From contig NZ_CP034593.1 in the NCBI RefSeq assembly GCF_003971195.1, positions 1,674,001 through 1,738,000 on the forward strand: 64,000 bases of DNA. The letters are read 5' to 3'. The translations under genes were made by a program, and so were the position numbers. Below are positions 12,200-50,186 of this stretch, piece by piece. Numbering within the stretch: the first letter of the stretch is position 1; every line of letters starts with the position of its first letter. Below the pieces are notes generated by a model, which had not been told where the DNA came from, ran no database searches, and saw nothing but the letters and a program-made list of their open reading frames with translations. This stretch comes from Flaviflexus ciconiae (GTDB lineage: Bacteria; Actinomycetota; Actinomycetes; Actinomycetales; Actinomycetaceae).

Positions 12200-13725
12200 A
12201 TGACCGAGAAGAAGTACGTATTGGCAATTGACCAGGGAACCACCTCATCCCGCGCGATTATCTTCAACCACTCCGGTGAGATCGTCTCCGTTGGACAGAT
12301 GGAACACGAGCAGATTTTCCCGAGGCCAGGCTGGGTTGAGCACGACCCGATCGAGATCCGTGACAACGTTCGCGAGGTAATTGGTATGGCCCTGGGTAAG
12401 GCCGATATCAACCGCCACGAGATCGCCTCCGTCGGTATCACCAACCAGCGTGAGACGGCAGTTGTCTGGGACAAGAACACGGGCCAGCCGGTCTACAACG
12501 CCATCGTTTGGCAGGACACCCGTACCGACAAGATCGCACGCGAGCTTGGCGGGGACGAAGGCGCGGAGAAGTACAAGGAGCGCGTCGGTCTGCCGCTCGC
12601 CACCTACTTCTCGGGCCCGAAGATCAAGTGGATCCTCGACAACGTTGAGGGAGCACGCGAGAAGGCTGAAGCGGGCGACCTCCTGTTCGGCAACACCGAC
12701 GCATGGGTTCTCTGGAACCTGACCGGTGGTGTTGACGGCGGCGTCCACGCAACCGACGTCACCAACGCTTCGCGCACCATGCTCATGGATGTTCGCAAGC
12801 TCGAGTGGGATCCCGAGATCTGCGCCGACATGGGCATTCCCATGTCGATGCTCCCGAGATTAGGTCCTCCTCCGAGGTTTACGGCCACGGCGCCAAGAAC
12901 ACCCTCATCATCGACACCCCGATCGCGGGTATCCTCGGTGACCAGCAGGCAGCCACCTTCGGCCAGGCTTGCTTCGAGAAGGGCATGGCGAAGAACACCT
13001 ACGGCACCGGTAACTTCATGCTCATCAACACCGGTCAGGAAGCCGTTACCTCCAAGAACGGCCTGCTCACCACCGTCTGCTACAAGATCGGTGACGCTCC
13101 GGCCGTGTACGCACTCGAGGGCTCCATCGCTGTCACGGGCTCGCTCGTCCAGTGGCTGCGCGACAACCTCAACATGATCAACTCCGCACCGGAGATTGAG
13201 ACCCTTGCTGAGACCGTTGAGGACAACGGCGGTGTTTACGTCGTCCCCGCCTTCTCGGGCCTCTTCGCTCCGTACTGGAAGGACGATGCTCGCGGCGCGA
13301 TCGTCGGCCTCACCCGCTTCAACAACAAGGGCCACATTGCCCGCGCAGTCCTCGAGGCAACCGCCTTCCAGACTGCCGAGGTTCTCGAGGCAATGAACGC
13401 CGACTCCGGCGCCGACCTCACCGAGCTCCGCGTTGACGGCGGCATGATCGCCAACAAAGCTCTCATGCAGTTCCAGGCCGACATCCTCGGCGTGGACGTT
13501 GTTGCTCCCAAGGTTGCGGAGACCACCGCTCTCGGTGCCGCCTACGCGGCAGGCATCGCTGTCGACTTCTGGCAGGGCGAGCAGGACGTCATCAACAACT
13601 GGCAGGAAGGCTCCCGCTGGACGCCCGAAATGGACGAGAACGAGCGTGCACGTCAGATGCGTCTCTGGAAGAAGGCCGTTACCCGCACCTTCGACTGGGT
13701 CGACGAGGATGTCACCAACGCCTGA
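12200..13725 (+). CDS. glpK: Glycerol kinase (frameshifted in this sequence)
   Basis: GlpK makes sn-glycerol 3-phosphate from glycerol and ATP. Start is ATG at 12200 after AAAGGA; the open frame further upstream is non-coding. Classic features are [16 protein letters not shown] (phosphate-binding), [25 protein letters not shown] with the catalytic Asp, [15 protein letters not shown], and the FGGY-family helix [12 protein letters not shown]. The frame breaks at about 12853-12856: CCCGAGATT needs one more G to give [14 protein letters not shown]. Corrected length is about 508 residues, as expected. Other glycerol genes in the window are glpABC at 54.9 kb; no glpF was found. Confidence 0.93.
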
Positions 13726-13760
13726 TCACCTGATCAAGCCATTCGATAGTCAATAGTCGA

Positions 13761-13798
13761 CGGTAGGCCCGAACAGCTCAAACTGTTCGGGCCTACCG
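13761..13798 (+). terminator. Terminator of glpK
   Basis: A perfect 16-bp stem, CGGTAGGCCCGAACAG (13761-13776) with its complement at 13783-13798, and the loop CTCAAA. It lies 35 bases after the glpK stop and is followed by CTATCTATTT. The facing merR gene ends 165 bases further on, so it could serve both directions. Confidence 0.85.
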
Positions 13799-13962
13799 CT
13801 ATCTATTTCCGCAAATATTCCCGTTGAGAACATCCGCATTGATACCAACCTCGAGGAGCCGTCTTTTCCGCAAAGCGCTCGGCTTCCCAGGGTTTCGCTG
13901 ACAGCTCTCAAGCCTTGGGTTTAGCCCGCAGTCGTTGCGATAACCACTGCGGCAAAGTTCTA

Positions 13963-14763
13963 CTAGACCCATTCGGCAGTGTCGGGATCCACTCCATTTG
14001 CTCGGGCGTTAGCTTCGACGATGTCTCGCACCCACCGGGCAAGGCCCGGGGCGCGATCATCGTAGTGGGATTGGAAGCGCGGGTCTTCCGTGTACAGGCG
14101 TGCCATGAGCACCTGCTTCGAATGGGTTGTTTCGACCCACTCTCCCACCCAGCCGCGGTGTAGCTCGGCCAGTTCGTTGGCTCGTTCGGTGCCCGGTTCA
14201 ACACCTTCCTCGAAGGCCTCCGCCAGCTTCTCCTCGAGCACGTTAATGTTGCGTTTCGCTACCTTCCAATCATCCGCAGTCATGTTGCTCACGCGCTTGT
14301 TGGACTGTTTCCACGCGTCACTCTCACCCCAGCGTTCTTCCGCTTCGTCTTCCCACGCCGGATTCCAATCCGGCCCAAGAATCTCGGCCCGCTGTGCGGC
14401 GGTAAGTTTTCTTCCCATTCCTTTTTCCCTCAACAGTTGATCAACAGCAGAGATCTTCTGCTGAAGGTGGGAGATCCTGGCAACGAGAAGCTTTCTTTGC
14501 TGTTCCAGATGTTCGCGCTCACCGAGCGCAGGCTCACCCAGAACCTCAGCGATGATCGATAGTGGCATGCCGGTCTCGCGGTACACGAGGACCGTTTCGA
14601 TCCGGTGGACATCCGATTCGGAATAGAGCCGATAGTCGGCACTTGACCGTCCACTCGGCACCGCAAGACCAATCTCGTCCCAGTGGTGCAAGGTCCGCAC
14701 ACTCACTCCAACGAGCTCTGCAACCTGCCCCACCGTCATACCCGGTTCATCTCTCACGCTCAT
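13963..14763 (-). CDS. MerR family regulator with TipAS-like drug-binding domain
   Basis: 266 residues. N-terminal MerR helix-turn-helix (TVGQVAELVGVSVRTLHHWDEIGL, then YRLYSESDVHRIETVLVYRE), a long coiled helix (about residues 85-115), and a C-terminal alpha-helical domain with NPAWEDEAEERWG and WKQSN, typical of TipA/Mta/SkgA-type multidrug-recognition regulators. These activate their own promoter when a peptide antibiotic or other lipophilic ligand binds. A fitting operator is present upstream (14773-14794). No efflux gene is next to it. Start at 14763 or the ATG eight codons in. Confidence 0.88.
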   Translation of the reverse strand: MSVRDEPGMTVGQVAELVGVSVRTLHHWDEIGLAVPSGRSSADYRLYSESDVHRIETVLVYRETGMPLSIIAEVLGEPALGEREHLEQQRKLLVARISHLQQKISAVDQLLREKGMGRKLTAAQRAEILGPDWNPAWEDEAEERWGESDAWKQSNKRVSNMTADDWKVAKRNINVLEEKLAEAFEEGVEPGTERANELAELHRGWVGEWVETTHSKQVLMARLYTEDPRFQSHYDDRAPGLARWVRDIVEANARANGVDPDTAEWV

Positions 14764-14772
14764 AGCATCCAG

Positions 14773-15839: not shown

Positions 15840-17510
15840 CTAGCTGTTCTTGCGTTCATGGATGGAGCGCTGGATGCCCTTGAGGCGTGCCATGACATCA
15901 TTGGTTCCGCGACCGAAGTAGTCGTGGAGTGTCAGGTACTCCTCGTACAGAAGGTCGTACTTCTTGGCGGCGTCCTCGTTCGGCACGTAGGCGTGTTCGA
16001 TCTTGGAGCCCATAGCATTAGCTGCCTCGTACACGTTCGGGTAGGCACCCGCCGCAACTGCACCGTAGATCGCTGCGCCGAGGGAGCCTGCGAGGTTCGA
16101 TCCGGAGATTGAGAGCGGGATACGGGTGATGTCGGCGTAGATCTGCATGAGGAACTTGTTCTTCAGCAGGCCGCCGGCGGCCACGATCTCGTTGATCTCC
16201 ACTCCGTGCTGGAGGAAGTTCTCGATAATGACCCGCAAGCCAAAGCCGGTTGCTTCCAGGTAGGCGCGGTAGATCTCTTCGGGCCGGGTGTTGAGCGTCA
16301 TGCCGACCAGCGTGCCCGACAGGGCACCGTTGTTGAGGATCGAACGGTTTCCGTTGTGCCAGTCGAGAGCGATGAGACCATGCTCGCCGATCTCCTGCTC
16401 GGCACCCTTCTCTGTGAGGAGTTCGTGGACGGAGATTCCGCGGCGGTTGGCCTCGTTCTGGTATTCGCCGGGAACGATGTTGTCGACGATCCAGGCAAAG
16501 ATGTCACCCACACCGGTCTGTCCGCCCTCGTAGCCCCACAGCCCCGCGGAGATACCACCGTTGGCGATACCAAAGACACCGGGGATGTCGCGGGCAGTTT
16601 TACCGTTGACGATGTAAACATTCGAGGTCCCCATGATCGCCGTCATCTGACCAACTTCAATGGCCTTCGCGGCGGGCGCGGTCACGTGAGCATCAATCTG
16701 TCCGACGGCGACGGCAATGCCGGGGCGAAGCCCCAGATCATTCGCCATTTCCTCAGTCAGGTCACCGGCTCGATCACCAAGTTGGAGGACCGGGGCCTCA
16801 AACTTGTCGGCGATGAAGGTGCGGAACTGCGGGTTGAGCTCGGCGAAATACTCCTCGGAGGGGTACTGGTCGTTCTGACGCAACGACTTGTAGGCCGCCG
16901 GTGCCGCGGAGTGGATGAGGCGGCCACACAGCTGCCACACGATCCAGTCGACAGCTTCAACGTAGTAGTCCATCGCCGCGTAGACATCGGGTGCCTTCTC
17001 CAGGGTCTCAAGTGCCTTCGGAAGCACAATCTCGGAGGAAATGCGTCCGCCGTAGCGGCCGAGCCACATCTCGCCACGTGCCTCGGCGATCGCGATCGCG
17101 CGCTCAGCCTGCTCGGTGCCGCCGTGGTGCTTCCACATCTTCACGTAGGCATGCGGGTTGTTCTTGAATTCCTCCGACTCGCACAGCGGAACGCCGTTCT
17201 CGTCGGTGGGGAGAACCGAGGCCGACGTGAAGTCGGTTCCGATACCGATAATGTCGTCAGCATTCACCGCAGCATCGCGGATCGCTTCGGGAACAACCGC
17301 TTTAAGGACCTCAACGTAGTCGGCCGGAACTTGGAGTGCGTAGTCGGGAGGTAGCGTCTGACCATCACCGGCGGTGAGGGTGCGGTCCATGACACCGTGC
17401 GGGTACTCCATGACGGACGAGCCAAGCTCGCGTCCGTCCGAAACTCGCACGACCGTGGCGCGGCCGGAAAGCGTGCCAAAATCGACACCAATAACGTATT
17501 TTTCGCTCAT
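15840..17510 (-). CDS. araB: Ribulokinase (AraB-type FGGY kinase), copy 1
   Basis: 556 residues from ATG at 17510 (AAAGGTGA upstream). Ribulokinase phosphorylates L-ribulose and is known to accept D-ribulose, ribitol and L-arabitol. The AraB N-terminus GVDFGTLSGRATVVR replaces the usual FGGY phosphate loop; AVGQIDAHV carries the catalytic Asp; GYEGGQTGVGDIFAW is AraB-specific. It is last in an operon with a zinc dehydrogenase, a SorC regulator and deoC (20541 to 15840), but two hairpins separate it from deoC. Its paralogue lies at 38276-39946. No araA is present, so L-arabinose itself is an unlikely substrate source. Confidence 0.88.
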   Translation of the reverse strand: MSEKYVIGVDFGTLSGRATVVRVSDGRELGSSVMEYPHGVMDRTLTAGDGQTLPPDYALQVPADYVEVLKAVVPEAIRDAAVNADDIIGIGTDFTSASVLPTDENGVPLCESEEFKNNPHAYVKMWKHHGGTEQAERAIAIAEARGEMWLGRYGGRISSEIVLPKALETLEKAPDVYAAMDYYVEAVDWIVWQLCGRLIHSAAPAAYKSLRQNDQYPSEEYFAELNPQFRTFIADKFEAPVLQLGDRAGDLTEEMANDLGLRPGIAVAVGQIDAHVTAPAAKAIEVGQMTAIMGTSNVYIVNGKTARDIPGVFGIANGGISAGLWGYEGGQTGVGDIFAWIVDNIVPGEYQNEANRRGISVHELLTEKGAEQEIGEHGLIALDWHNGNRSILNNGALSGTLVGMTLNTRPEEIYRAYLEATGFGLRVIIENFLQHGVEINEIVAAGGLLKNKFLMQIYADITRIPLSISGSNLAGSLGAAIYGAVAAGAYPNVYEAANAMGSKIEHAYVPNEDAAKKYDLLYEEYLTLHDYFGRGTNDVMARLKGIQRSIHERKNS

Positions 17511-17671
17511 AAGATCACCTTTGATCGTTGGGTAGTAATGCCGTGCGTTTACGCGGCAACGGATCGGTATTCCGCAAGAATCTACGGTTGTTCGGTTGGG
17601 ATGTCGCACGTGGTCTGCGACAGTTCTTGGATGTTATGCCGAGAGAATTTCGGGATCTAAAAGGGGTAGAA

Positions 17672-17695
17672 ATTGCCGCGGCGCACCGCGGCAAT
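17672..17695. terminator. Hairpin in the deoC-araB gap
   Basis: ATTGCCGCGG (17672-17681) and CCGCGGCAAT (17686-17695) form a perfect 10-bp stem with loop CGCA in the 250-base gap between deoC and araB. Together with the next hairpin it could reduce transcription into araB. Confidence 0.55.
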
Positions 17696-17710
17696 GACTG
17701 GGTGTACTTG

Positions 17711-17754
17711 CTGAGGTATGCCGCGCCAAAGTTTGTTGACGCGGAATACCTCAG
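17711..17754 (-). terminator. Terminator-like hairpin behind deoC
   Basis: CTGAGGTATGCCGCG (17711-17725) pairs with CGCGGAATACCTCAG (17740-17754) with one mismatch and a 14-base loop. It starts six bases after the deoC stop on the minus strand. It suggests that araB downstream is expressed at a lower level or has its own promoter in the gap. Confidence 0.6.
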
Positions 17755-17760
17755 AACGGT

Positions 17761-18405
17761 TTAGAGGGTGTCAAGAACCTTCTGGGTACCCGACAGGCCA
17801 AGGCGGCTTGCGCCGGCTTCGATCAGTTCAGTCGCAAACTTGCCGTCACGAATACCGCCGGAGGCCTTGACGCCAATGTTCGGACCAACGGTCTCGCGCA
17901 TGAGCTTGATGGCAGAGACGGATGCTCCGCCAGCCTTGTGGTAGCCGGTCGACGTCTTCACGTAGTCGGCCTTCGCATCGACGGAAGCCTGGCAGGCGGC
18001 AACAATCTCGTCGTCGGTCAGGGCGGCCGACTCGATGATGACCTTGAGGAGAACATTCGGGGCTGCCTCGCGGACTGCGGCGATCTCGTTCTTGATGTAG
18101 TCGAAGTCGCCCTCCTTGGCCTTGCCGACGTTGATGACCATGTCGATCTCGTCAACCCCAGCATCGGCCAGTTCCTTCGCTTCGGCGGCCTTAACGGTCG
18201 CGGAGTGGGCGCCCGAGGGGAAACCGCAGACCGCGGCAACCTTCACGCTTGTCTCCCTCGGGAGCGGGATCTGGGTGGGTGAGACGCAGACCGAGAAGGT
18301 GCCCAGCGCCTCGGCATCGTCAAGGAGCTTAAGAACGTCTTCCTTCGTGGCCTCCGGGGCCAGCAGCGTGTGGTCAACAATGGATACAACATCCTGAGGA
18401 TTCAT
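17761..18405 (-). CDS. deoC: Deoxyribose-phosphate aldolase
   Basis: 214 residues. DeoC cleaves 2-deoxy-D-ribose 5-phosphate to glyceraldehyde 3-phosphate and acetaldehyde through a Schiff base. The catalytic residues are visible: DEIDMVINVG (Asp), LLKVIIESA, and the Schiff-base lysine in YVKTSTGYH, with VKASGGIRD closing the barrel. ATG at 18405 follows CGGAGA. It lies in the zinc-dehydrogenase/sorC/araB operon rather than next to nucleoside phosphorylase genes, which suggests a role for related sugar phosphates made here, though nucleoside breakdown cannot be excluded. Confidence 0.93.
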   Translation of the reverse strand: MNPQDVVSIVDHTLLAPEATKEDVLKLLDDAEALGTFSVCVSPTQIPLPRETSVKVAAVCGFPSGAHSATVKAAEAKELADAGVDEIDMVINVGKAKEGDFDYIKNEIAAVREAAPNVLLKVIIESAALTDDEIVAACQASVDAKADYVKTSTGYHKAGGASVSAIKLMRETVGPNIGVKASGGIRDGKFATELIEAGASRLGLSGTQKVLDTL

Positions 18406-18505
18406 ATTTTCTCCGGTTCTGGCGGCACGGTAGCCGCGGATCTTGTGGTGGTGTAGGCCGAAGCCATTACGTTAAAACTACAGTGGGTTAGCGTCGAGCA
18501 CCTTC

Positions 18506-19465
18506 TCAGCGGTCCTCGACACCGAGGACATTCTCAGCAATCTTGGATTCGGTGACGAGAACCGAGCAGATCCCGGCATAGAGAACAGCGCGGGTAATTC
18601 CGCTCTTCTCCTCCCCCACCGCAACTGCGATCGACTTCGGGATCTTAGCGAGGGAATCGATATCCAAGCCAATCGTCCGCTGGTCGAGCTCGAAGTCAAC
18701 AACCCGACCAAAGCGGTCAATGTAGTGCCCGAGAATATCCCCGATAGCACCGGCCTCTTGAAGACCCACGACCTCGTCGGCGGTGATGCAGTTGGTCTTC
18801 CGCAGCACCGAATGCGGTGAGAGGACACCAATCGAGAAGAGGCCAACTTCGGCCCTGGCGGCAAGCTCGAGTGTTTTCCCCACCTGAGGATCAGCCATGA
18901 GCCGCCGAGCAAGCTCCCGGTCCTGGACGATCGCGGATGCTGGAAGCAGCGCGGTCCTGGGATCGCGGGACTTGCTCGCAATCATCCGGATGATGCTTCC
19001 AGCATCCACCGTGTCCGTGAGGGAGTTGGCCCCACCATTCAGCTGCACAATCGTGGGTTCCCTGAGAATACCTTCGGGGAGCCGTTCCGCAATGGCGGCC
19101 ACGGTGTGCCCCCAGGAAACCCCAACGATCCCCGGCTGCGGCCGGAGCTCGACCAGATAGTCAGCGGCGGCCTGCGCCGCCAACGCCATCGTCCCCGCGT
19201 TCGTCGGTTGAGATTCGACGACAACGGCTTCGCCGCAGTCGAAGCGCTCCATGAGCTTCCGCTCGAGGTCGCGCCTCCTCGACTGAGGGTGATGGATCTT
19301 AATTTCGACAAGGCCCGAGGACCGGGCCTCCTCAAGGAGCCTTCCCACCTTCCAGCGGGACAGGCGAAGCTTGTCCGCAACCTCGGACTGGAGCAGTCCG
19401 TCGTTGTAGTACAGCTCCGCCGCTCTCACCATGGCGTGCTCGTGCTCGGTACTTCCGCTTTTCAT
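18506..19465 (-). CDS. SorC family sugar-binding transcriptional regulator
   Basis: 319 residues. Helix-turn-helix near the N-terminus (NDGLLQSEVADKLRLSRWKVGRLLEEA) followed by a sugar-phosphate isomerase-like effector domain (GVSWGHTVAAIAERL, FSIGVLSPHS). SorC proteins bind a phosphorylated sugar intermediate and control the operon that makes it. It lies between the zinc dehydrogenase and deoC in the same transcription unit, so it probably regulates that operon from the palindrome at 20652-20665. Confidence 0.9.
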   Translation of the reverse strand: MKSGSTEHEHAMVRAAELYYNDGLLQSEVADKLRLSRWKVGRLLEEARSSGLVEIKIHHPQSRRRDLERKLMERFDCGEAVVVESQPTNAGTMALAAQAAADYLVELRPQPGIVGVSWGHTVAAIAERLPEGILREPTIVQLNGGANSLTDTVDAGSIIRMIASKSRDPRTALLPASAIVQDRELARRLMADPQVGKTLELAARAEVGLFSIGVLSPHSVLRKTNCITADEVVGLQEAGAIGDILGHYIDRFGRVVDFELDQRTIGLDIDSLAKIPKSIAVAVGEEKSGITRAVLYAGICSVLVTESKIAENVLGVEDR

Positions 19466-19479
19466 AGTTGCCTGCCGGG

Positions 19480-20541
19480 CTAGTTGGTCGGCAGGTCCGT
19501 TCCGTTCGGAAGGAAAAGAACCTTCGAGGAATGGATCGTGCGCTCAGACATGTTGCGAATCGTCTCCGCTACCTTCTCGAGCGGCTCCTCGTGGGTGATC
19601 ATGAACTCCCACAGCAGGTTGCCGTTGGCCATGTGCTCGAGGGTGGTCGTCCACTCGGCACCCGGGAAGGGCGCACCGAAGGAGTTCCACGAACCGCAAA
19701 TATTGATCTCCAGGCGCATGAGGCGGGCCCAGTTCCCTGCCGAGATCTCCACCGGGGCGTTCGGAATGCCGATAAGGGTAACTTCGCCGTGGCGAGCAGC
19801 AATGCCAACCGACTGGTCAGCAACCGCCGGAACACCCGTCGTTTCAACAACGACGTCGAAACCGGATCCAACAATCTTCTCGAGTTCTTCGGTCGAGGAA
19901 ACCGCCGTGGTTGCCCCTGCCTCGAGTGCCAGCTTGGCCTTCTCCTCAGACACATCGACGGCAACGATGTCGGTGGCACCCATGATCCGGGCCCACTGGA
20001 CAGCGAACAGGCCAATCGGGCCGCCGCCACCCATGACGGCAACGCGGGAACCGGCGGTCAGCTTCGTCCGCCAAATCGCGTGCAGAGCAATAGCGGCCGG
20101 GTCAACCATCGCGGCGGCGCGAGCATCAAGACCGGCGGGAACCTTGAGAAGAAGGTTGGCGGGGCCGGCAACATACTCGGCGTAGGCGCCGTTACGACGG
20201 GAACCGTAGTAGTCGTAGTTCTCGCACAGCGAGAACTCGCCCTGAACACAGGGAGCGCACTCGAAGCAGGGAAGCATTGGGGGGACAGTGACAAGGTCGC
20301 CGACCTCAAAGCCCTCAACGCCCTCACCGAGCTCCTCAATGTAGCCGGAGAACTCGTGGCCTGTGACGAGCGGAAGCTTGTGGGGGCCCTTCTTGTACAT
20401 GCGGTCGAGATCGGAACCGCACACGCCGCAGGCCGCAATCTTCATGACGACCTCACCCGGACCAGCAACCGGCTTATCGATTTCTTCGAGACGAATATCG
20501 CCGACCGCATGCATGACAACGGCCTTCATTTTCTCTGACAT
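19480..20541 (-). CDS. Zinc-dependent polyol / polyol-phosphate dehydrogenase 1 (GatD-like)
   Basis: 353 residues from ATG at 20541, eight bases after GGAGG; an open frame further upstream is spurious. Medium-chain dehydrogenase: catalytic zinc ligands in CGVCGSD and GHEFSGY, structural zinc cysteines in PCFECAPC...C, and the Rossmann motif AVMGGGGPIGLFAV. The segment CGSWNSFGAPFPGAEW resembles the galactitol-1-phosphate/arabitol-phosphate dehydrogenases. First gene of the operon with sorC, deoC and araB. The substrate may therefore be an alditol phosphate or a free alditol; the sequence does not decide. Confidence 0.82.
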   Translation of the reverse strand: MSEKMKAVVMHAVGDIRLEEIDKPVAGPGEVVMKIAACGVCGSDLDRMYKKGPHKLPLVTGHEFSGYIEELGEGVEGFEVGDLVTVPPMLPCFECAPCVQGEFSLCENYDYYGSRRNGAYAEYVAGPANLLLKVPAGLDARAAAMVDPAAIALHAIWRTKLTAGSRVAVMGGGGPIGLFAVQWARIMGATDIVAVDVSEEKAKLALEAGATTAVSSTEELEKIVGSGFDVVVETTGVPAVADQSVGIAARHGEVTLIGIPNAPVEISAGNWARLMRLEINICGSWNSFGAPFPGAEWTTTLEHMANGNLLWEFMITHEEPLEKVAETIRNMSERTIHSSKVLFLPNGTDLPTN

Positions 20542-22303: not shown

Positions 22304-22502
22304 GATTTCCGAGCAGTACCTCCTCTACGGCATCGCGCACCGCAAGCTCGAAGAGCGTGGCATCAAGGTGTGGCGTAGCTACGTCGGCGAATACTGTACT
22401 TCGCTGGAGATGGCGGGCGTCTCCCTCACCCTCTGCAAGGTTGATGCCAAGCTTAACGAGCTCTTCCTTGCACCGGCGGAGATCGCAATCCGTACCTTCT
22501 AA
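22302..22502 (+). pseudogene. dhaK: 3' remnant of dihydroxyacetone kinase subunit dhaK
   Basis: The last 66 codons of a DhaK-type protein in frame to TAA at 22500-22502. The KLEERGIKVWRSYVGEYCTS and LEMAGVSLTLCKVDAKL segments match the C-terminal strands of DhaK, where YxTSLxMxGxSLTL is highly conserved. The active-site histidine and the substrate-binding part are gone. The 5' side ends at CCCC (22300-22303), beyond which the opposite strand encodes the truncated gntR. No dhaL or dhaM follows. Confidence 0.8.
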
Positions 22503-23495: not shown

Positions 23496-23628
23496 AGTGT
23501 TCACTTCCTCCCTACATCAAACTCTACTGCCACCCATCGAAGAAGAACGAAATGGGTGAAAGAAATAAGCAGCACAGCTCGTCGAGATAGGCGTGTCGGG
23601 GCCAGAGCCCCGACACACCACTCACGTG

Positions 23629-41438: not shown

Positions 41439-42230
41439 TTAGCGGGCAACTATGACGTGCGTCTCCCCTCTCAGTTCGGCCAGAGTTTCCTCATCGATGC
41501 CATCATCAGTGATGACGCAGTCAAAATCAGAGATTTCGGCCATTTTGTGGAGAGACGTGCGTTTAAACTTCGGTGCCGCAACAACGAGGACCGAGAATTC
41601 TGCCTGTGACATGGCAAGAGACTTGAACGACCCCACCTCCGCGTACGGGTGGTAGACAGCGAAATTCTGAACCGAAGCGGCTCCGACGACAACGGCGGAC
41701 GGGTTAAGGTTCGTTATCTCTTTGGTAGCTGTCGGGCCGAAAAAAGCGTCAAGCTGAGGATTATAGGTGCCGCCGAGCGAAATGAGTTTGCCCTGAACGG
41801 ATTGCGAGAGGGCCCGCGACACTGCGAGCGAATTCGTGATGTACGTCTTTTGCTGCACATCGGGCAACAGGTCGACTATCGCTAGTGCGGTCGTCGAATC
41901 ATCAAGGAAGATTGTGGAATAGTCGGCCAGGATCTCGGCCGCAACCTTAGCAATTTTGGCCTTGGCCGAGACATCCTGCACGAGACGGAAAGAGATAGGT
42001 GTTTCCGAGGTGGAGTTGGTGACCGCCGCGACCTCGCCACGGGAGCGGCGCACAAGGCGCTTCGACTCCAGCGTGGCGAGATCACGGTAAAGGGTCATAG
42101 GAGACACGTCGAAGAGCTCGATGAGTTCATCAGTTCTGATGGAACCGCGCTCGTAGATCAGCCGAGCAAGTTCATCCTGGCGCTGCTGCTTCGAGACGCT
42201 TACCGTCGCCCCCCGACTGGCCTCCGACAC
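41439..42230 (-). CDS. DeoR family transcriptional regulator 2
   Basis: 263 residues from GTG at 42230 (GGAG six bases before); frames reaching further upstream overlap the kinase gene and are rejected. Helix-turn-helix IRTDELIELFDVSPMTLYRDLATLE, then SRGEVAAVTNSTSETPISFRL shared with DeoR 1. The effector domain shows FLDDSTTALAIVDL and YITNSLA. It lies between FGGY kinase E (10-base gap) and the AraM-like gene in the operon, and is the likely repressor acting at the palindrome 46226-46242. Confidence 0.9.
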   Translation of the reverse strand: MSEASRGATVSVSKQQRQDELARLIYERGSIRTDELIELFDVSPMTLYRDLATLESKRLVRRSRGEVAAVTNSTSETPISFRLVQDVSAKAKIAKVAAEILADYSTIFLDDSTTALAIVDLLPDVQQKTYITNSLAVSRALSQSVQGKLISLGGTYNPQLDAFFGPTATKEITNLNPSAVVVGAASVQNFAVYHPYAEVGSFKSLAMSQAEFSVLVVAAPKFKRTSLHKMAEISDFDCVITDDGIDEETLAELRGETHVIVAR

Positions 42231-42240: not shown

Positions 42241-43833
42241 TTACGCGTTCTTGCGGAGGCTATCGACGTAGTCGACGGTCGTGTGGACGTGCTCCTGGAC
42301 AAGCGGGTACTGAGCAACGTACTGGTCCGCGAAGAACTTGTACTGCTCGTGCTTGGCCATGTCGGGCTCGATGTGCTCGCGCTCGTGCACCATGTTGTCG
42401 GCAGCGTCCTGCACCGAGTCGTACAGGCCGGCACCGGCGGCTGCGAGAATGCAGGAGCCGAGGGTCACAGCATCGCCGACCTCCGTGAGTGTGATCGGAA
42501 TACCGGTGACGTCGGAGTGCATCTGCATCCAGCTGCGCGACTTCGTGGAGCCACCGCAGGCAACGAACTGCTTGACCTCGAAGCCAGCGTCAGCAAGCTT
42601 GCGCATGTTGGCTTCGACGCCGTAGCAGACGGCTTCCTGGATGGCCTTGTACATGTGCTCACGGCTGTGCGAAAGCGACAGGCCGGTGATGACACCGCGG
42701 GCCTTCGAGTCGGAGTACGGGGTGCGGTTGCCCTGGAAGTACTCGTTGATGAGCAGACCGTCGCAACCGATCGGGATATCGGCGGAACGCTGGTTCATGA
42801 TGTCGTAGGTGTTGAGACCCGTCGACTGCGCGGCCGCCTCGATATCGGGGCAGAAGTTGTCCTTGAACCACTTGAGGACCGAACCGGAGGACACGAGCGA
42901 GGTCTCGACCGTGTACTGACCGGGAACAACACCGTCCGTGTAGCCGCCGAAGAAACCGGGGCCAGAAACGGGTTCCGGAGACTGGCCGGACATGACGTGC
43001 GAGGAGCCCGTCACGAGGGTCATCTTGCCCGGGCGCAGAACGTTGAGGCCGATCTGACCGTGCCAGGCGTCGCCGCCACCCTGCGCAACGGGGGTGCCGG
43101 GGATCAGGCCGAGCTGCTCGGCGGCGCGGTTAGCGAGGCCACCGACGGGAACACCGAGGTCGTTCACGGTCTCCGGAAGCTTCTCGAAAACGTCGCCCGC
43201 GCCGGCCTCCTCGTAGAGGTCGGTCGGCCAGCCACCGTTGTCACGGTCGTAGTACATGCGGTGAGCGGCGGTGTTGATGTTGAGTGTCCACTCGCCGGTC
43301 AGCTGGTAGGTGAGCCAGTCCGGAGCATCAACAATGCGGTAGGCGTTCCTGTAGGTGTCCGGCTCATTCTCGCGCAGCCAGGCAGCCTTGAAGGGGAACC
43401 ATTCGGCGGTGGGAGGAAGGGTGCCGTTGCCGGTGTAGCGACGGGCCGTCGACTTCGTCTCGGCAACGCGTGCGGCCTGCTCGGTTGCACGGACGTCCAT
43501 CCACATGATTGCTGGGCGCAGAGCCTCACCGGTCTTGTCGAGCGCCACGACGGTCATCGTCGTCGCATCGTAGGAAATGCCGGCAATCTGGTGCGGCTGG
43601 AGGCCAGCGCGCTCCATGACGCGGTGCGTCGAGGCGACGAGAGCGCCCCACCAGTCGATCGGGGACTGCTCGGCCCAGCCCGGCGCCGGGTGGGTCGTCT
43701 TGTAGGTCGTCGCAGCAAACGCAACGGGCGACCCGACAAGGTCGAAAATGCCGACACGGCACGACTCGGTGCCGAAGTCGATGCCCATGACGAAGGGTCC
43801 GTCAGGACGAGTATTCGTGTTGTGAGTTGTCAC
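42241..43833 (-). CDS. FGGY carbohydrate kinase E
   Basis: 530 residues. GTG at 43833 is preferred, six bases after AGGTGGAG; an ATG twelve bases earlier overlaps that site. N-terminal MGIDFGTESCRVGIFD resembles the ribulokinase-like branch; PAPGWAEQSPIDWW, GISYDATTMTVVALD, QGGGDAWHGQIGLN (catalytic Asp), TGSSHVMSGQ, and NEYFQGNRTPYSD follow. It is the most diverged of the five unassigned kinases and does not match xylulo-, glycerol- or classical ribulokinase. Third gene of the long operon, right behind the HAD-IIA phosphatase gene. Confidence 0.8.
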   Translation of the reverse strand: MTTHNTNTRPDGPFVMGIDFGTESCRVGIFDLVGSPVAFAATTYKTTHPAPGWAEQSPIDWWGALVASTHRVMERAGLQPHQIAGISYDATTMTVVALDKTGEALRPAIMWMDVRATEQAARVAETKSTARRYTGNGTLPPTAEWFPFKAAWLRENEPDTYRNAYRIVDAPDWLTYQLTGEWTLNINTAAHRMYYDRDNGGWPTDLYEEAGAGDVFEKLPETVNDLGVPVGGLANRAAEQLGLIPGTPVAQGGGDAWHGQIGLNVLRPGKMTLVTGSSHVMSGQSPEPVSGPGFFGGYTDGVVPGQYTVETSLVSSGSVLKWFKDNFCPDIEAAAQSTGLNTYDIMNQRSADIPIGCDGLLINEYFQGNRTPYSDSKARGVITGLSLSHSREHMYKAIQEAVCYGVEANMRKLADAGFEVKQFVACGGSTKSRSWMQMHSDVTGIPITLTEVGDAVTLGSCILAAAGAGLYDSVQDAADNMVHEREHIEPDMAKHEQYKFFADQYVAQYPLVQEHVHTTVDYVDSLRKNA

Positions 43834-43868
43834 AGTTATCTCCACCTAGATTCGTTCGTTAATCTCGT

Positions 43869-44713
43869 TTAGTCTTCGTCGGTCCAGCCCCAGTCGGAGC
43901 GAATGGACTCCGGAATGAGGTGGTCAACGCGTTCCAGGACATACGTCGGCTGGTGCTCTTCATCGAGCCCCTGCGCTTCGGCGTAGGTCGAGTCGCCGGT
44001 AAGGACCAGCGTTGACGCCATGCCCGTGTTCACTGCCATGCCGATGTCGGTTCCGAGGCGGTCGCCCACCATCATGCAGTTCTTCGGGTCAACATCGAGG
44101 TCGCCCAGTGCCGCCTCGAGCATGGCAGTCTCGGGCTTGCCCATGTTGGCCTTCAGTTTCGTTCCGGTTGTCGCCTCGATCGCGGCAACAATGCCTGCGG
44201 CGTCCGGTTCCCCTCTTCCCCGGGGAACGGGCAGTACTTGTCCGGATTCGTCGTAATAAGGAATGCCCGCTTGTGGAACCAGATGGCATCAAAAGCGATC
44301 TGGAGCTTGCGGTATTCAAAAGTTCTGTCGTAGGAGGCGATGACAATGTCGATCTCCTCCGGGTTTTCGCTCATCTTGATCCCGGCTTCAGCCAGTGCCT
44401 TCTTGAGCGGTTCTTCCGAGATGGGGAAGACGGTCGCGTCCGGGTGGTGCATCTTTAGCCAGCGCGTGGTGGTGACCACCGTGTTGGCGATCTCGGAGAC
44501 GGGGGTCGGGATCCCGAGCCGTTCGAGCTTTTCTACGTACAGCTCGGGGTCCTTCGTTGGGTTGTTCGAAAGGAAACGAACAGGTTTACCCAAGGAGCGC
44601 AGTCCCTCGATGAGACGCTTAGCTCCGGGGAGCAGATCCTCACCGAGATAAATGGTTCCGTCCATGTCGAATACATATGCATCAAATAGCTTGTCCGGCG
44701 AAGAGAGAATCAA
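43869..44713 (-). CDS. HAD-IIA (NagD/AraL-like) sugar phosphatase (frameshifted)
   Basis: TTG start at 44713 with AAGGAG seven bases before. Motif I FDMDGTIYLGEDLLPG, motif II FLSNNPTKD, and in the second frame GKPETAMLEAALG and motif IV MVGDRLGTDIGMA. The frame breaks at the CCCC run 44210-44213 (GGGG in the gene): one more G gives PGEEGEPDAAGIVAAIEATTG. Corrected length about 281 residues. AraL of the Bacillus arabinose operon belongs to this group and removes toxic sugar phosphates; the same role is likely here. Second gene of the nine-gene operon. Confidence 0.87.
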
Positions 44714-44773: not shown

Positions 44774-45792
44774 CTATGCGAGGATCGCGGTCAGGACGTA
44801 CAGAACCGAGGTACCGATCCAGATGGCGAATGCCGGGGATCAATGTGGGTGTCGCCGTTGGCGTTGGTCATACGCGAGAGCGCCTCACCAAGGACACCGG
44901 CAAGGGCACCGAAGATACCGCCGATGATGACTGCAACGACGATCATGACGTCGCCATCCCATGCGGTGACATCGGACGTGCCAGCGAGGATCGGAGCGAA
45001 CTTGAGTGCTGCGATCGAAGCGACGATCGTCATGTGGTGCGTGACCGGGGTCTTCATGCCGAGCGACAGGAAGATCAGGGAGATAGCCGAGATGGCCCAG
45101 CCAACGAGCTGCGCGTGGTTAACAATGCCGGGGGCTGTCGGGAAGATGAAGACAACCAGCCAGATGGTGGCGAATGCCGACATGATGCCCGAGGTGAGAC
45201 CGTGCATCGCGGTGATGCCCCAGCCTTCCTGGTGCTCGACCCAGTGCTTGCCTTCGCCGACGGCGAGAAGAGCGTGATCCTTGGTCGAGAAGAGGCCGGT
45301 GGAACCCCAGATGAAGCGGACTGCGATGGAGACGATAACAATTGTCAGAGCGACGGTATCCGTCCAGCCGATGACTTCCGCACCGTAGTGCAGATCTGGG
45401 TCGCTGACCGAAAGGGCCGGGACCTCGGCGAGGAGGTTGTTGACAAGGTAGCCAACCATACCGAAGACACCACCGACGACGAGAACGTCCGAGCGCCCAA
45501 TGCCGGCCAGCGGTGTGACAATGTCACGGCCGTTGGCCCCGCCTGCCATCACACCCTTCTTAGCGGCGTAAGCGGCTGCTGCCGCGCCACCAAGGAAGGC
45601 GATGTGCGGGCCGAAGACCGGGCCGAACACGATCGAACCCATGAACCAACCCATGTCGACGCCACCGAGGTAACCGCCGAGGCCGATCATGTAGAGAATG
45701 CCGGTAAAGATAAAGGCGGTCTGTCCGCCGATTGCTGCGCCAAAGGCGCCGCCGCCGAAGGAGGCGACGAGCCATAAGAGATCAAATTCCAC
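44774..45792 (-). CDS. Unassigned polytopic membrane protein, transporter candidate (3' frameshift)
   Basis: GTG at 45792 follows AGAGGA with a seven-base spacer. Nine to ten hydrophobic, glycine-rich segments are visible, with GGGAFGAAIGGQTAFIFTGI, VFGPVFGPHIAFLGGAA, LAGIGRSDVLVVGG and MKTPVTHHMTIVASIAAL as striking blocks. The uncorrected frame ends in a polar tail; one G restored in the run 44835-44838 gives HIDPPAFAIWIG, a last helix and a stop at 44774 (339 residues). It is the first gene of the nine-gene kinase operon and the only polytopic protein of the island. It matches no transporter family that I recognise. Sugar-alcohol uptake is inference. Confidence 0.7.
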
Positions 45793-46374: not shown

Positions 46375-47237
46375 GTGATGAAGAGCGAAACTCCTGTCCT
46401 GGATCTTGATAATCTGCCCTGGCCCGCCGACCAGCCGAAACACTTCGTTTTCGACGTTGACGGCACCCTCACGGACGAGCATTCGATTACTCACCAGCCC
46501 ACGGTTGATGCCCTTCAAGCCGCACACGCCGCTGGTTACCCCATCACCGTTGCCACGGGACGCCTCCTCCAAGCAGGCGTCCGACTGCTTGAACGTGCAG
46601 GTATCGAAGGCTGGGTGATCGCAAACTGCGGCAGTATCGTCTGGGACGGACAGTCCATTGTTCACGCATACCCGATGCCAACGGAGCAGCTGGAGCGCTT
46701 CATCGAACTTGGTCGTAGCATCGGCGTCGTTCCCGCTGTCTACTTTGTCGACGACATTGTCATGGACATGGGCGACTTCGACATCGATGCCGGAGACATG
46801 AACCTGCTCAACGTGGCGCTTAACGCGAATGAGGGGCGCCCGATCCGCCAGCTCGACCTTGAAACCGCCGACCTCAGGCACGCGACAAAGGTCCAGTTCG
46901 GTGGCGATTCAAGAATCCTCGACCAGCATCAGGAACGGATCCTGGAGGAGTTCCCGGAAGCCGTCCGCGGCCATGCCTTCGCTCTGGAGCTCACCCCGAT
47001 GGCATCACGAAGTGGACCGGGATCGAAGCTACCCTGAAGGATCGCGGCCTGACCGCGGAGGGCGCACTCGGCGTTGGCGACTCCGGTAACGACGTTCCCT
47101 GGCTTCCCAAGGTCGGGATTTCTGTGGCAGCTCCGCATTCCACACCCGACGTCATCGACGTATGCGACGTCGTTCTACCCAACATTGACTTCCCCGTAGC
47201 TCAGCTCATCAACGCGATCGTGAGGAGAACATCATGA
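46375..47237 (+). CDS. Cof-type HAD phosphatase 3 (3' frameshift)
   Basis: HAD class IIB: FVFDVDGTLTDEHSIT, TVATGRLL, and in the corrected frame GVGDSGNDVPWLP. The break is at CCCC 46994-46997; a fifth C restores ELTPDGITKWTGIEATLKD and runs to TGA at 47235-47237. The corrected protein is about 287 residues. The next gene starts at 47234, so the two overlap by ATGA. It heads a three-gene plus-strand operon (HAD, SMP-30, P-loop kinase) divergent from the long kinase operon. Confidence 0.85.
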
Positions 47238-48072
47238 CACCCGAGCAGATCACCGATCCCGTCGCCGACCACGGCGAAGGCCCCTGCTGGCATCCCTCCT
47301 GGGGTGGCCTGCGCTGGGTCGACATGCTTGCTGGCGACCTCCTCACCTTGAACGGCGACGGCGACGTCGATCGCCTCCACGTCGGCAAGATTGCAGCCTT
47401 CGTTCGGCCCCGCTCCCGGGCGGCTACGTTGTCGGCCTCGAAAACACGATTGCCCTTGCCTCTTCGCCCTTCGGCGATCCGGTTGCCGAACCTGCCTTCT
47501 GGGACGACTCGAACCTTCGCTTCAACGAGGGCGGCTGCGATCCCTGGGGCAACCTCTACTGCGGGTCCATGGCATACGACCGTACGGAAGGGGCCGGCCA
47601 GCTCTTCCGGGTCAGCCCGAGCGGCGAAAAGACTGTCGTCCTCCCGCACGTCTCCACCTCGAACGGTATTGCATTCTCCCCCGACGGCACTCTCGCCTAC
47701 TACAACGATACGAAGCTTCGTCAGACCGATGTCTTTGACGTCATCGATAAGCGCCTCATCAACCGTAGGCCGTTCGCCTCGTCGGACGGCGCCAGCAACG
47801 ATGGTCTGACGGTCGACTCAGAGGGCAATATCTGGGTGGCAATGAACCGTCACGGCAAGGTGCGTCTCTACTCCCCCGACGCCGAGATTCTCACGGAGAT
47901 CCAGCTTCCTGTTCAGCTGGTCACGGCGTGCACACTGGGAGGACCGGACATGCGCACCCTGTTCATCACAACATCGCGCGAAAACCTTGAGGATCCGGAG
48001 CCGGAAGCAGGAGCGGTGTTCGCGGTCGAGGTAGACGTGCCGGGCATGCCCGTTGCCGAGTACGGCGGCTGA
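47234..48072 (+). CDS. SMP-30/gluconolactonase-like protein (frameshifted)
   Basis: Six-bladed propeller of the SMP-30 family, which hydrolyses sugar lactones with a bound divalent metal. ADHGEGPCWHP carries the first metal Glu, DDSNLRFNEGGCDPWGNLYCG the Asn/Asp pair, STSNGIAFSPDGTLAYYND the next Asn, and SNDGLTVDSEGNIWVAM the catalytic Asp. The frame breaks near 47415-47420; one more C or G gives a glycine-rich turn followed by GGYVVGLENTIALA. Corrected length about 279 residues. The ATG overlaps the HAD stop. It would open a lactone produced by sugar oxidation. Confidence 0.87.
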
Positions 48073-48090
48073 CGGACTATCATCGGTCAG

Positions 48091-48744
48091 GTGACGACGA
48101 ACCTCACCGGTGACGGTGCACTCTTTGATCTCCCGCCCGAGGAACGTGAGCCTCAGGCCCGGGTAATCCTCGTGACCGGCCCCTCCGGGTCCGGCAAGAC
48201 GAGGTTCACGGGCCGCACCGGCCTGCCCGTCGTCGCCCTTGACGATTTTTACTACGACGACACCCACCCGGGTCTCCCTCGTAAGCACGGGATCATCGAC
48301 TGGGACTCTCCCGCATGTTGGGACAGGCAGGGCGCCCTGGGCGCACTGATCAAGCTCGCCACGACTGGCGAAGCCACTCTTCCCATCTACGACATCCCCA
48401 CCAACTCGAAGGTGGCAGAACGTACCCTCGACCTCGAGGGCTCACCACTTTTTCTTGCCGAAGGGATCTTTGCGGCCGAGCTTGTTCACCTGTGCCGGAG
48501 GGAAGGCATCCTCGCGGACGCCTTCTGCATTTCCCGTCCCCGCCTCCAAACCTTCTGGTTCCGGCTCATGAGGGACCTTGACGAAGGCCGCAAGCCACCC
48601 ATCCCCCTTATCCGCCGCGGCATCTCCCACATGATTCACGAGCCCGAAATGTACCGGGATCTGGAACGCAAGGGAGCCCGCCGGGTCTCCATCGTCGAAG
48701 CCCACGAAGCCCTCACCCAAATGTTGGCGAAGGTCCGCCGATAA
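48091..48744 (+). CDS. P-loop uridine-kinase-like protein
   Basis: 217 residues from GTG at 48091. Walker A is VTGPSGSGKTRF near residue 29, followed by the uridine/phosphoribulokinase-type DDFYYDD and WDSPACWD motifs. It is a small-molecule kinase of the uridine kinase/pantothenate kinase-like group; the true substrate is open and, given the operon, might be a sugar or nucleoside. Last of the three-gene plus-strand operon. The 400-base region behind it holds only inverted repeats. Confidence 0.82.
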   Translation: MTTNLTGDGALFDLPPEEREPQARVILVTGPSGSGKTRFTGRTGLPVVALDDFYYDDTHPGLPRKHGIIDWDSPACWDRQGALGALIKLATTGEATLPIYDIPTNSKVAERTLDLEGSPLFLAEGIFAAELVHLCRREGILADAFCISRPRLQTFWFRLMRDLDEGRKPPIPLIRRGISHMIHEPEMYRDLERKGARRVSIVEAHEALTQMLAKVRR

Positions 48745-48960
48745 GGACGCACTCCAGGCAAACCATAAGCAACTTAGCCGGCAAACAACTTAGCAGGCAC
48801 AGTACCCGCCACCGATCCGCACGAGGGTAGCAAGCCACTCCTCTTATATAAATAGGACGGCCCCACAACCTGCAGTCTTTTGGGAACCGATTCCCTATAG
48901 GGAACTCTAAGGCCCTGAGATCGCCTTGCCAGCGGCTACCCCCACGTCAGCGCATCTGGC

Positions 48961-48976
48961 CACCAACAGGTTGGTG
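48961..48976. promoter_or_regulatory. Inverted repeat CACCAAC-AG-GTTGGTG
   Basis: Perfect 7-base arms with a 2-base centre in the gap 48745-49145, between convergent genes. GGGAACCGATTCCC with TATAGGGAA follows the same style near 48890. Purpose unknown; an operator of a lost gene is possible. Confidence 0.35.
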
Positions 48977-49015
48977 CAACGGCAGTACTAACACCGATTA
49001 CACGTTGGCATGTGC

Positions 49016-49055
49016 GAAGAAGGGGATCGGTTGCGATCTACCGATCCCCTTCTTC
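49016..49055. terminator. Strong bidirectional terminator
   Basis: GAAGAAGGGGATCGGT (49016-49031) pairs perfectly with 49040-49055; the loop is TGCGATCT. The A-rich and T-rich stem ends give U-rich tails in both directions. It serves the plus-strand P-loop kinase operon and the facing dehydrogenase gene. Confidence 0.85.
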
Positions 49056-49145
49056 ACGCTATGACCGCAGGCGATTTCTGGATTCGTGACTGAATCGAGC
49101 ACCGCCTAATAGATACGGCCGTCCAGTATCGACGGCCTGCTCCAC

Positions 49146-50186
49146 CTAGCTGGGCACAACTGCTGTCTTGATGCCCTTGCCTGCGCTGACGTGTTCGATA
49201 GCTGCGGCAGCATCCTCAAGCTTGAATGGCTCGGTGAGCAAAGCACCAACGTTGATTGTGCCGTCGCCGATAAGCTGGACGGCCTTGCGGTAGTTGTTCC
49301 GCCCCATGTTCGAGCCACCGGTGACGGTGAGCTCGTTGTAGTGGATGAGGTTCGGATCGATGCTCGCCATCTGCCCCTTCGGGAAGCCAGCAAATGCGTT
49401 GACACGTCCGCCATTGCGGACGGACAGGAGGGCGGTCTGGAAGAGGTCGAGGGCGCCGATGCACTGAACCGCAACATTGGCGCCGAGGCCGCCGGTGAGG
49501 TCCTTGACGAACTCCGGCACATTCACATCACCGGTGAGTGCGGTGTGGGTGGCGCCAACCTGCTTGGCGATCTCGAGGCGCTCCGGTGAACGGTTAACAA
49601 CAATGATCTGCGAGGCACCCTTCTGCTTCGCCACTATCGTGTGCAACAGACCAATCGGGCCCGCGCCAACGATAAGGACGGAGTCACCAATGTGCACCTG
49701 GTAGTTATCCACACCGTTCAGCACACATCCGAGGGGCTCCGCGAGCGCAATCTCGGCCGGGTTGCTACCGGGGAGTGCGGGAACGATGGCACCGCGCTGG
49801 ATTGCAGCGTCGTTGACGAGGACATATTCGGCTAGGCCACCGTCGATCCAGTAGCCGAAGAGCTTAGCGTCGACACACATGTGCTCAAGGTGGTTTTCGC
49901 AGTAGTAGCAGCGCAGGCAGGGCACGGTTGGCATGACGCCAACGAGCTGTCCCTCGTCGAAGCCTTCGACGCCGGCGCCGATCTCGTGGACGTAGCCGGA
50001 GAATTCGTGGCCCATGATGACACCGGGGCGTACGCCCGCGGTCTTTTCTCCGCGGAGGATCCTTCCGTCGGTTCCGCAGACGGTGTTAGCTGCGACCTTG
50101 AGGACCAGTTCACCGGGTCCCGCCTTTGGCGTGGGAACGTCCCTCATCTCGAGCTGACCGGGCCCGACAAGTACTGCAGCGCGCAT
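49146..50186 (-). CDS. Zinc-dependent polyol dehydrogenase 4
   Basis: 346 residues. VCGTDGRILRGEKTAG, GHEFSGYVHEIGAGVEGF, structural cysteines PCLRCYYCENHLEHMC, and LIVGAGPIGLLHTIVAK. Close paralogue of 31065-32105 and of the same length; the duplicated pair shares EPLGCVLNG and IDPNLIHYNEL blocks. Unlike the other three it stands alone, with its own operator-like palindrome upstream (50222-50237) and the terminator at 49016-49055. Substrate unknown, probably a pentitol or hexitol. Confidence 0.87.
   Translation of the reverse strand: MRAAVLVGPGQLEMRDVPTPKAGPGELVLKVAANTVCGTDGRILRGEKTAGVRPGVIMGHEFSGYVHEIGAGVEGFDEGQLVGVMPTVPCLRCYYCENHLEHMCVDAKLFGYWIDGGLAEYVLVNDAAIQRGAIVPALPGSNPAEIALAEPLGCVLNGVDNYQVHIGDSVLIVGAGPIGLLHTIVAKQKGASQIIVVNRSPERLEIAKQVGATHTALTGDVNVPEFVKDLTGGLGANVAVQCIGALDLFQTALLSVRNGGRVNAFAGFPKGQMASIDPNLIHYNELTVTGGSNMGRNNYRKAVQLIGDGTINVGALLTEPFKLEDAAAAIEHVSAGKGIKTAVVPS

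Follow-up and report, generated by a model that had tools for sequence, protein, structure and literature searches.

A DUF7973 membrane protein as a candidate alditol uptake component in a kinase-rich operon of Flaviflexus

The DNA analysed here (the window, 64,000 nucleotides in full) comes from a Flaviflexus, a member of the family Actinomycetaceae. Positions 12200-50186 are rich in FGGY kinases, sugar oxidoreductases and aldolases, and the preliminary description saw no recognisable transporter among them, which raises the question of how the substrates of these enzymes enter the cell. It proposed a multi-substrate alditol system with unusual or remote uptake, and a putative system of this kind for alditols or ketoses fits the comparisons made here. 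The route need not be remote, however: the span contains a polytopic membrane protein, U333 (44791-45792), and this candidate carrier heads the kinase run.

All eight of the FGGY kinases originally counted are present, spread over 11924-43845. A genome-wide profile search finds FGGY_N in seven of them, and the eighth, AraB1, is recognised through its FGGY_C domain. Clustering is beyond chance, as 7 of the 11 genomic FGGY_N matches lie inside ~32 kb of a 2.83 Mb genome; this search, with the Pfam and NCBIfam matches, rules out a chance grouping or a miscount. The assignment to one glpK (frame-broken), two AraB and five unassigned kinases is also upheld. AraB1 and AraB2 pass the L-ribulokinase equivalog of NCBIfam (TIGR01234, 676 and 684.2 bits, cut-off 583.25). 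FGGY1-5 fall below every curated cut-off listed (xylulokinase, gluconokinase, glycerol kinase), scoring best with TIGR01312 (275-288.7 bits, cut-off 380.25) and lower with the remaining families. FGGY1 and FGGY4 are 50% identical, and each is adjoined by a GpsA. Pfam and NCBIfam bear out four zinc dehydrogenases, two GpsA-like proteins, one AraM/Fe-ADH_2-like protein, one 2-hydroxyacid dehydrogenase, DeoC, AraD and a FucA-like aldolase, which makes eleven oxidoreductases and aldolases where ten had been counted. L-arabinose isomerase has no match among the 50 ORFs of the window chosen for Pfam scanning.

Most of these genes form a run on the minus strand at 22.7-45.8 kb. Its first gene is U333 (44777..45792 with its shifted tail), followed by a NagD/AraL-type HAD phosphatase (43869..44713), whose Hydrolase_6 and Hydrolase_like domains fall in two ORFs separated by a frame break near 44210-44231; it is a single gene in two relatives, G007 and G008. 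The FGGY5 kinase (42241..43845, FGGY_N/C) forms the core of this conserved module and adjoins the DUF7973-NagD pair in most family loci. It precedes the regulator DeoR2 (41439..42190, HTH_DeoR and DeoRC; the start is a domain estimate in an ORF that opens at 42434). Then come an AraM-like protein resembling glycerol-1-phosphate dehydrogenase (39980..41347, Fe-ADH_2; top PDB match G1P dehydrogenase, E 4e-35), AraB2 of the L-ribulokinase family (38276..39946, above the TIGR01234 and NF003154 cut-offs) and AraD of the L-ribulose-5-phosphate 4-epimerase subfamily (37578..38279; NF005123, 370.9 bits, cut-off 251). FGGY4 (36024..37535) is followed by GpsA2, which is glycerol-3-phosphate dehydrogenase-like (34950..36014; top PDB match 1txg, F. 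massiliensis 93% identical), FGGY3 (32220..33698), the zinc dehydrogenase ADH3 (31065..32171), FGGY2 (29467..30972), a protein of the D-2-hydroxyacid dehydrogenase family (28401..29426) and the FucA-like class II aldolase (27742..28394, frame break near 28260-28272). The run closes with FGGY1 (25749..27404), GpsA1 (24685..25731), the zinc dehydrogenase ADH2 (23629..24663) and the regulator DeoR1 (22716..23504).

The remainder of the island is less uniform. Beyond DeoR1 lies the remnant of a DhaK-type kinase on the plus strand (22293..22499, the last ~66 residues by tblastn), the same tail ending a 343-aa ORF in G008. A separate minus-strand unit (15840..20527) comprises ADH1 (19480-20527), SorC2 (18506-19465), DeoC (17761-18405) and AraB1 (15840-17609). 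GlpK is on the plus strand (11924..13725) in two frames, 11924-13177 and 12805-13725, with SorC1 (10774-11976) beside it. On the other side, a flank kept in relatives (46375..50186) holds HAD3, an SGL lactonase-like gene and the weakly uridine-kinase-like U217 on the plus strand and ADH4 on the minus strand. The order of the run, with U333 first, is kept in four further Flaviflexus genomes: G005, G007, G008 and, to the extent that its sequence was fetched, G006. The span as a whole is not conserved as a single unit: 22.7-50.2 kb is collinear in the Flaviflexus relatives read, but G005, G007 and G008 showed no AraB1-DeoC-SorC2-ADH1 part at the corresponding position. TPI- and DAK-like genes, judged by eye, also occur in Flaviflexus relatives.

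The stated absence of ABC and MFS genes holds, as no ABC_tran, BPD_transp_1, BPD_transp_2 or MFS_1 match falls in the window. For the same families no transporter operon is seen just outside it, a find that by the preliminary description would have counted against its proposal; the nearest listed match is a weak ABC_tran ~39 kb beyond the window, and the next is at ~47 kb. Pfam scans of the 50 chosen ORFs and the membrane-helix survey give no SSS, TRAP or PTS gene. U333 has seven hydrophobic segments. In a six-frame survey no other frame of the span exceeds two predicted membrane segments; with translations of the gaps, this survey also disposes of a transporter concealed in a frameshifted gap of the span. 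Outside the span, a five-segment ORF occupies 372-1208. In G005 a single MFS-like gene, on the opposite strand, separates GpsA2 from FGGY3; the corresponding gap in the window (1.25 kb) lacks such a gene.

U333 has no match in the local copies of Pfam (where the PF25928 model is absent) or NCBIfam. Judged by the labels of its homologues and by profiles A1 and A2, it is a member of the uncharacterised family PF25928/DUF7973. All 120 homologues listed, out of 1649, have this label precomputed; among them is P0001, the protein encoded in the window itself. Three motifs are largely invariant in alignment A1 (GPxxGPH, PVTHHMT and HxDPPA). U333 has the first two in frame, and HIDP of the third; the rest of the third motif lies in a tail that shifts frame after about 44836 and runs on to 44777. 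Upstream of the gene, TATAAC and AAGAGGA are kept in four of four aligned genomes. Two AlphaFold models of DUF7973 proteins (mean pLDDT 95.6 each) show a weak predicted likeness to channels, with urea channels top and Amt/Rh next among hits spanning the greater part of the model. For the model of the Vibrio member, the top VIA-align score (Z 10.0) belongs to a TRIC channel, in an alignment limited to 103 residues within one half; further TRIC entries appear here and there lower in the list. Searches of PDB sequences with profile A1, of a viral structure library and with Foldseek returned nothing useful. An internal repeat reaches an hhalign E of about 0.01-0.03 yet a probability of 1-2%, and is therefore not claimed.

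The neighbourhoods of DUF7973 beyond Flaviflexus tie it to FGGY kinases. Among 29 Actinomycetaceae loci, such a kinase lies within 10 kb in 27 and within 2.5 kb in 26 (same strand in 23 of those). A NagD-like HAD is within 400 bp in 27/29 and AraM within 5 kb in 25/29, always on the same strand, and an RpiB-like gene (at least 68% identity) is nearby in 19. The GlpK column of the proximity table was left unused because of cross-hits. In other Actinomycetota, at least 13 of 21 loci are no more than 10 kb from an FGGY kinase, compared with 0.85 expected (P 4e-14, a value that ignores descent among related genomes). This count was made by hand, and no more than one additional locus could prove positive. 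The 21 loci derive from 27 rows, after removal of the window's own locus, merging of three split genes and dropping of G101 and the second place in G048 as weak partial rows. Glycerol kinase is adjacent to DUF7973 or one gene away in Rubrobacter-type genomes (glpK/dhaK/dhaL), a Microbacterium plasmid (glpK/glpD) and one haloarchaeon, Natribaculum longum. In the last, profile A1 recognises the protein of the gene that directly follows GlpK (E 5e-60). PVTHH and DPPA occur in this protein; the pattern of the first motif fails to match. A Haladaptatus plasmid shows no GlpK up to 8 kb from DUF7973.

The run at 22.7-45.8 kb is probably an enlarged Actinomycetaceae alditol operon, in which DUF7973 would provide uptake and the FGGY kinases trapping. 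From the observed gene content and order, conservation, kinase co-occurrence and predicted membrane segments we infer transport, a channel mechanism, the substrates and the following order of steps. U333 would admit an unphosphorylated alditol or ketose, probably as an uncoupled channel or facilitator, and the kinases would trap it as a phosphate. The AraM-like (glycerol-1-phosphate type) and GpsA-like (glycerol-3-phosphate type) dehydrogenases could then oxidise alditol phosphates of opposite handedness, and the zinc dehydrogenases may oxidise free alditols before a kinase acts. Through AraD and the aldolase, the products would enter glycolysis or the pentose-phosphate pathway. The likely substrates are C4-C5 sugar alcohols. 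DUF7973 is a concrete candidate for the apparently missing polyol uptake step, and the pairing of dehydrogenases would place two enzyme families in a likely alditol-phosphate context.

Several known systems bear comparison. As in GlpF-GlpK, an unphosphorylated polyol would enter and then be trapped by an FGGY kinase; here, however, the candidate carrier is from another family, U333 and the whole Flaviflexus genome having no match to MIP (PF00230). In Bacillus subtilis, araBDLM brings together AraB, AraD, AraL (a NagD-type HAD) and AraM. The window groups the same four types, but without L-arabinose isomerase among the ORFs scanned or an AraNPQ-type ABC transporter, and instead has several more kinases and polyol-phosphate-type dehydrogenases. 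Erythritol and threitol pathways employ EryABC-TpiB-RpiB or DAK-type erythrulose kinases. They share FGGY or DAK kinases and RpiB/TPI-type isomerases with the family loci (RpiB-like) and with Flaviflexus relatives (TPI- and DAK-like), whereas the dehydrogenases of the window are AraM and GpsA and the run has no ABC transporter. Literature listings for Flaviflexus, for FGGY kinases acting on alditols and for the transport of polyols yielded nothing relevant. A further precedent is haloarchaeal: Anderson et al. 2011 (PMC3102087) predict a membrane protein adjacent to glpK (rrnAC0550) to be a glycerol transporter, with bacterial homologues near glycerol or propanediol genes. No experimental test of this prediction was found in the literature searched. 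The likeness, a membrane protein beside glycerol kinase, is drawn through the Natribaculum longum homologue. The difference is that glycerol is predicted there, while U333 heads a kinase run with AraB, AraD and AraM.

That precedent and the GlpK, DhaK and DhaL neighbours in Rubrobacter-type genomes favour a facilitator of glycerol or dihydroxyacetone only, with larger alditols entering by another route or slow diffusion. We consider this rather unlikely, as DUF7973 in Actinomycetaceae accompanies AraB/AraD/AraM and RpiB-like genes, and GlpK or GlpD labels occur within six genes in just 4 of the 29 loci (L094, L108, L111, L112), with DhaK/DhaL in one more (L093). DUF7973 might also do another job, such as export, sensing or membrane support of the kinases, while a remote ABC, MFS or PTS system imports the substrates. 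In the genome BPD_transp_1 is matched 29 times and MFS_1 38 times, a further FGGY kinase, at 167 kb, has two ABC sets no more than ~10 kb away, a GpsA2 homologue in Acidipropionibacterium is near an apparent galactitol-type PTS EIIC (family by eye), and 20 of the 29 family loci contain another polytopic ORF. According to PMC11962113, putative MFS transporters are often found in archaeal glycerol kinase neighbourhoods, which is another route. However, the empty ~39 kb beside the window, for the four families searched, and the recurrence of DUF7973 rather than any single known transporter as partner of the kinase genes make this reading unlikely.

Frame breaks in GlpK, NagD, the U333 tail, HAD3, SGL and FucA, and the DhaK remnant, could instead point to a decaying island of relics that has lost its own transporter. 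Against this, a database protein (P0002) that is 100% identical to U333 over 96% has an unbroken tail, invariant Asp positions are common to the seven kinases that sit in one frame, and the picked ORFs with at least three segments in G007 and G008 (60 kb read) likewise include no known sugar transporter. Decay is thus highly improbable, and the frame breaks are perhaps assembly errors. (Kup, in G008, is the one known transporter among these ORFs.) The glycerol-only alternative overlaps in part with the alditol operon reading, so the likelihoods given here do not add up to a whole.

More broadly, and tentatively, DUF7973 could be a further polyol channel family that is unrelated to MIP, has a urea-channel-like fold and acts together with FGGY kinases in members of the Actinomycetota, in haloarchaea and perhaps in certain gammaproteobacteria. 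Among the Actinomycetaceae, it may have broadened from glycerol to C4-C5 alditols and be able to replace GlpF. The nameless family PF25928 is now tied to the 2011 prediction, and, if true, the annotation of polyol and glycerol uptake would change for Actinomycetota and haloarchaea without GlpF. A strict substitution for GlpF is too strong, since Rubrobacter-type genomes and 12 of 33 DUF7973-positive family genomes have both. MIP is present in 61 of 88 DUF7973-negative family genomes (Fisher P 0.0016, likewise ignoring descent, and assuming that both searches drew the same 121 genomes, as the listed handles agree). Within Flaviflexus, five DUF7973-positive genomes are without MIP/GlpF, and one DUF7973-negative genome has MIP beside GlpK.

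The kinase run consists of minus-strand genes from DeoR1 to U333 (22.7–45.8 kb). Its first gene, U333 (44777–45792), encodes a polytopic membrane protein; in a six-frame hydrophobicity survey no other frame of the island span exceeded two membrane segments. The preliminary description of the island as having no recognisable transporter holds for the ABC and MFS families, as whole-genome searches gave zero matches in the window to ABC_tran, BPD_transp_1, BPD_transp_2 or MFS_1; it does not hold for U333, a candidate carrier at the head of the run. The GlpF/aquaglyceroporin family (MIP) has zero matches anywhere in the genome. U333 itself has no match in the local copies of Pfam or NCBIfam. A search of 5.8 billion proteins identified at least 1649 homologues among 8000 candidates scored; 120 listed members of the 1649 carry the PF25928 label, and several are named DUF7973. 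A second homologue search added members in Vibrio, Photobacterium, Aliagarivorans and Thioclava.

DUF7973 is present in 33 of 121 Actinomycetaceae genomes, and its neighbourhood was counted at all 29 places outside Flaviflexus. An FGGY kinase lies within 10 kb at 27 of these loci and within 2.5 kb at 26, on the same strand in 23 of the latter. A NagD-like HAD phosphatase is found no more than 400 bp away at 27/29 and AraM (glycerol-1-phosphate dehydrogenase-like) within 5 kb at 25/29, always on the same strand. Two exceptions (L089 and L099) are missing the kinase, HAD and AraM partners alike. An RpiB-like gene occurs at 68% identity or more in 19/29, with two weaker matches besides, and was not found in the window or in the stretches from three other Flaviflexus genomes (G005, G007 and G008). 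Unlabelled reading frames of varied kinds with at least five membrane segments are present at 20 loci and absent from nine, so that other carriers may accompany the module at those 20. By eye, genes resembling a lactate permease and a lactate-utilisation set were seen near the module at two loci (L098 and L102).

Of 396 Actinomycetota genomes drawn more widely, 17, including that of the window, have DUF7973 matches. At least 13 of the 21 loci kept have an FGGY kinase no more than 10 kb away, against 0.85 expected. Rubrobacter-type genomes have the order GlpK-DhaK-DUF7973 followed by DhaL, and a Microbacterium plasmid carries DUF7973-glpK-glpD. On a Rubrobacter radiotolerans plasmid the gene accompanies DeoR, ADH, transketolase, HAD, two FGGY kinases, a 2-hydroxyacid dehydrogenase and a DHA kinase, with no annotated transporter in the 24.6 kb shown, for which the gene table is incomplete. 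However, the pattern is not universal. A Haladaptatus plasmid has no kinase found within 8 kb of DUF7973, and a Rhodococcus plasmid copy (L087, 8866–9765) lies amid alcohol, aldehyde and acyl-CoA genes (NDMA-dependent alcohol dehydrogenase, aldehyde dehydrogenase, acryloyl-CoA reductase), a context that suggests a diol substrate.

Five Flaviflexus genomes have DUF7973 and lack MIP. The sixth (G009) lacks both DUF7973 and GpsA2, and there MIP adjoins GlpK. Across Actinomycetaceae, MIP occurs in 12/33 DUF7973-positive versus 61/88 negative genomes (Fisher P 0.0016, genomes treated as independent of descent), a distribution that fits partial replacement rather than exclusion. The idea of a transporter is not new for glycerol, because excerpts of Anderson et al. 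2011 (PMC3102087) predict this role for a haloarchaeal membrane protein adjoining glpK, a prediction that PMC3402447, also in excerpt, repeats for Natrinema. One haloarchaeon, Natribaculum longum, has a full-length DUF7973 homologue directly after GlpK. No published experimental test of the prediction was found in searches of literature with limited coverage of subscription papers. The name 'DUF7973' was likewise not found in the literature searched, nor were the PF25928 tie, the recurring alditol-type operon or the fold hint.

The island recurs in related Flaviflexus in part. The DeoR1-to-LysS stretch is collinear in G005, G007 and G008, except that G005 is missing GpsA1 and FGGY1, and G007 is missing Kup at its place and has a divergent DeoR at that of DeoR2; the 60 kb read from each of the three showed no AraB1-DeoC-SorC2-ADH1 part. 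In G006 (loci L002 and L083) gene order is identical to the window as far as read. For G005, G007 and G008, the best FGGY_N match is probably GlpK and sits to the same side as in the window, but 27–35 kb from DeoR1 versus ~10 kb there. In G007 and G005 this interval contains, by eye, DAK-type kinase, TPI-like, class II aldolase and 2-oxoacid dehydrogenase genes, together with an additional FGGY kinase and ADH. The window retains a DhaK-type remnant of ~66 residues (22293–22499), of which G008 has a longer copy on this side of the cluster. Gaps within the run are 6–124 bp with one 4-bp overlap (some starts estimated), apart from 1251 bp before FGGY3 and 337 bp before FGGY1, and the run may therefore comprise more than one transcript. 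The GpsA2-FGGY3 gap (33699–34949; GC low, 50.7%) exceeds its counterparts in G007 and G008 by 0.8–0.9 kb. An MFS-like gene occupies this point in G005, as if the site were an insertion hot spot.

The window spans 1674001–1738000 of one 2.83-Mb contig. Pfam and NCBIfam bear out the enzymes first listed: eight FGGY kinases, four Zn-ADHs, two GpsA-like, one AraM-like and one 2-hydroxyacid dehydrogenase, DeoC, AraD and a FucA-like aldolase. AraB1 and AraB2 exceed the NCBIfam ribulokinase cut-offs, and none of FGGY1–5 reaches any listed cut-off. The seven single-frame kinases share invariant Asp residues, including one near the domain N terminus and one mid-chain. Their pairwise identity is 20–29%, except for FGGY1/FGGY4 (50%) and AraB1/AraB2 (57%), and from these comparisons they look like distinct enzymes rather than recent copies. 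A further FGGY kinase of this genome (G000:C1, 2779796–2781276) is apparently split over two overlapping frames. The island also includes a MerR regulator with a TipAS antibiotic-recognition domain (13963–14763), and three genes with domains of anaerobic glycerol-3-phosphate dehydrogenase (glpABC-like) lie nearby (54931–59041).

GpsA2 is 93% identical to its counterpart in Flaviflexus massiliensis and 87% to that in F. huanghaiensis, both species being assigned to the same genus as the window. Its homologue stands beside AraB-AraD in Propionimicrobium and, in Acidipropionibacterium, near an apparent galactitol-type PTS EIIC (recognised by eye). Since a PTS would supply polyol phosphate, GpsA2 plausibly oxidises such compounds. 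In Flaviflexus, FGGY1-GpsA1 and FGGY4-GpsA2 would then be kinase-dehydrogenase pairs for polyol-phosphate oxidation after unphosphorylated uptake, with AraM serving the opposite configuration. The substrates would most likely be C4–C5 alditols.

Frame changes occur in GlpK (12805–13177), FucA (28260–28272), NagD (44210–44231), the tail of U333 (44836), HAD3 (46995) and SGL (47419–47470). The tail is whole in P0002, a database homologue identical over 96% of U333, and relatives hold unbroken versions of those broken genes that were compared; sequencing or assembly error would thus be the simplest reason. Whether the breaks are real or erroneous, the kinase count is unaffected.
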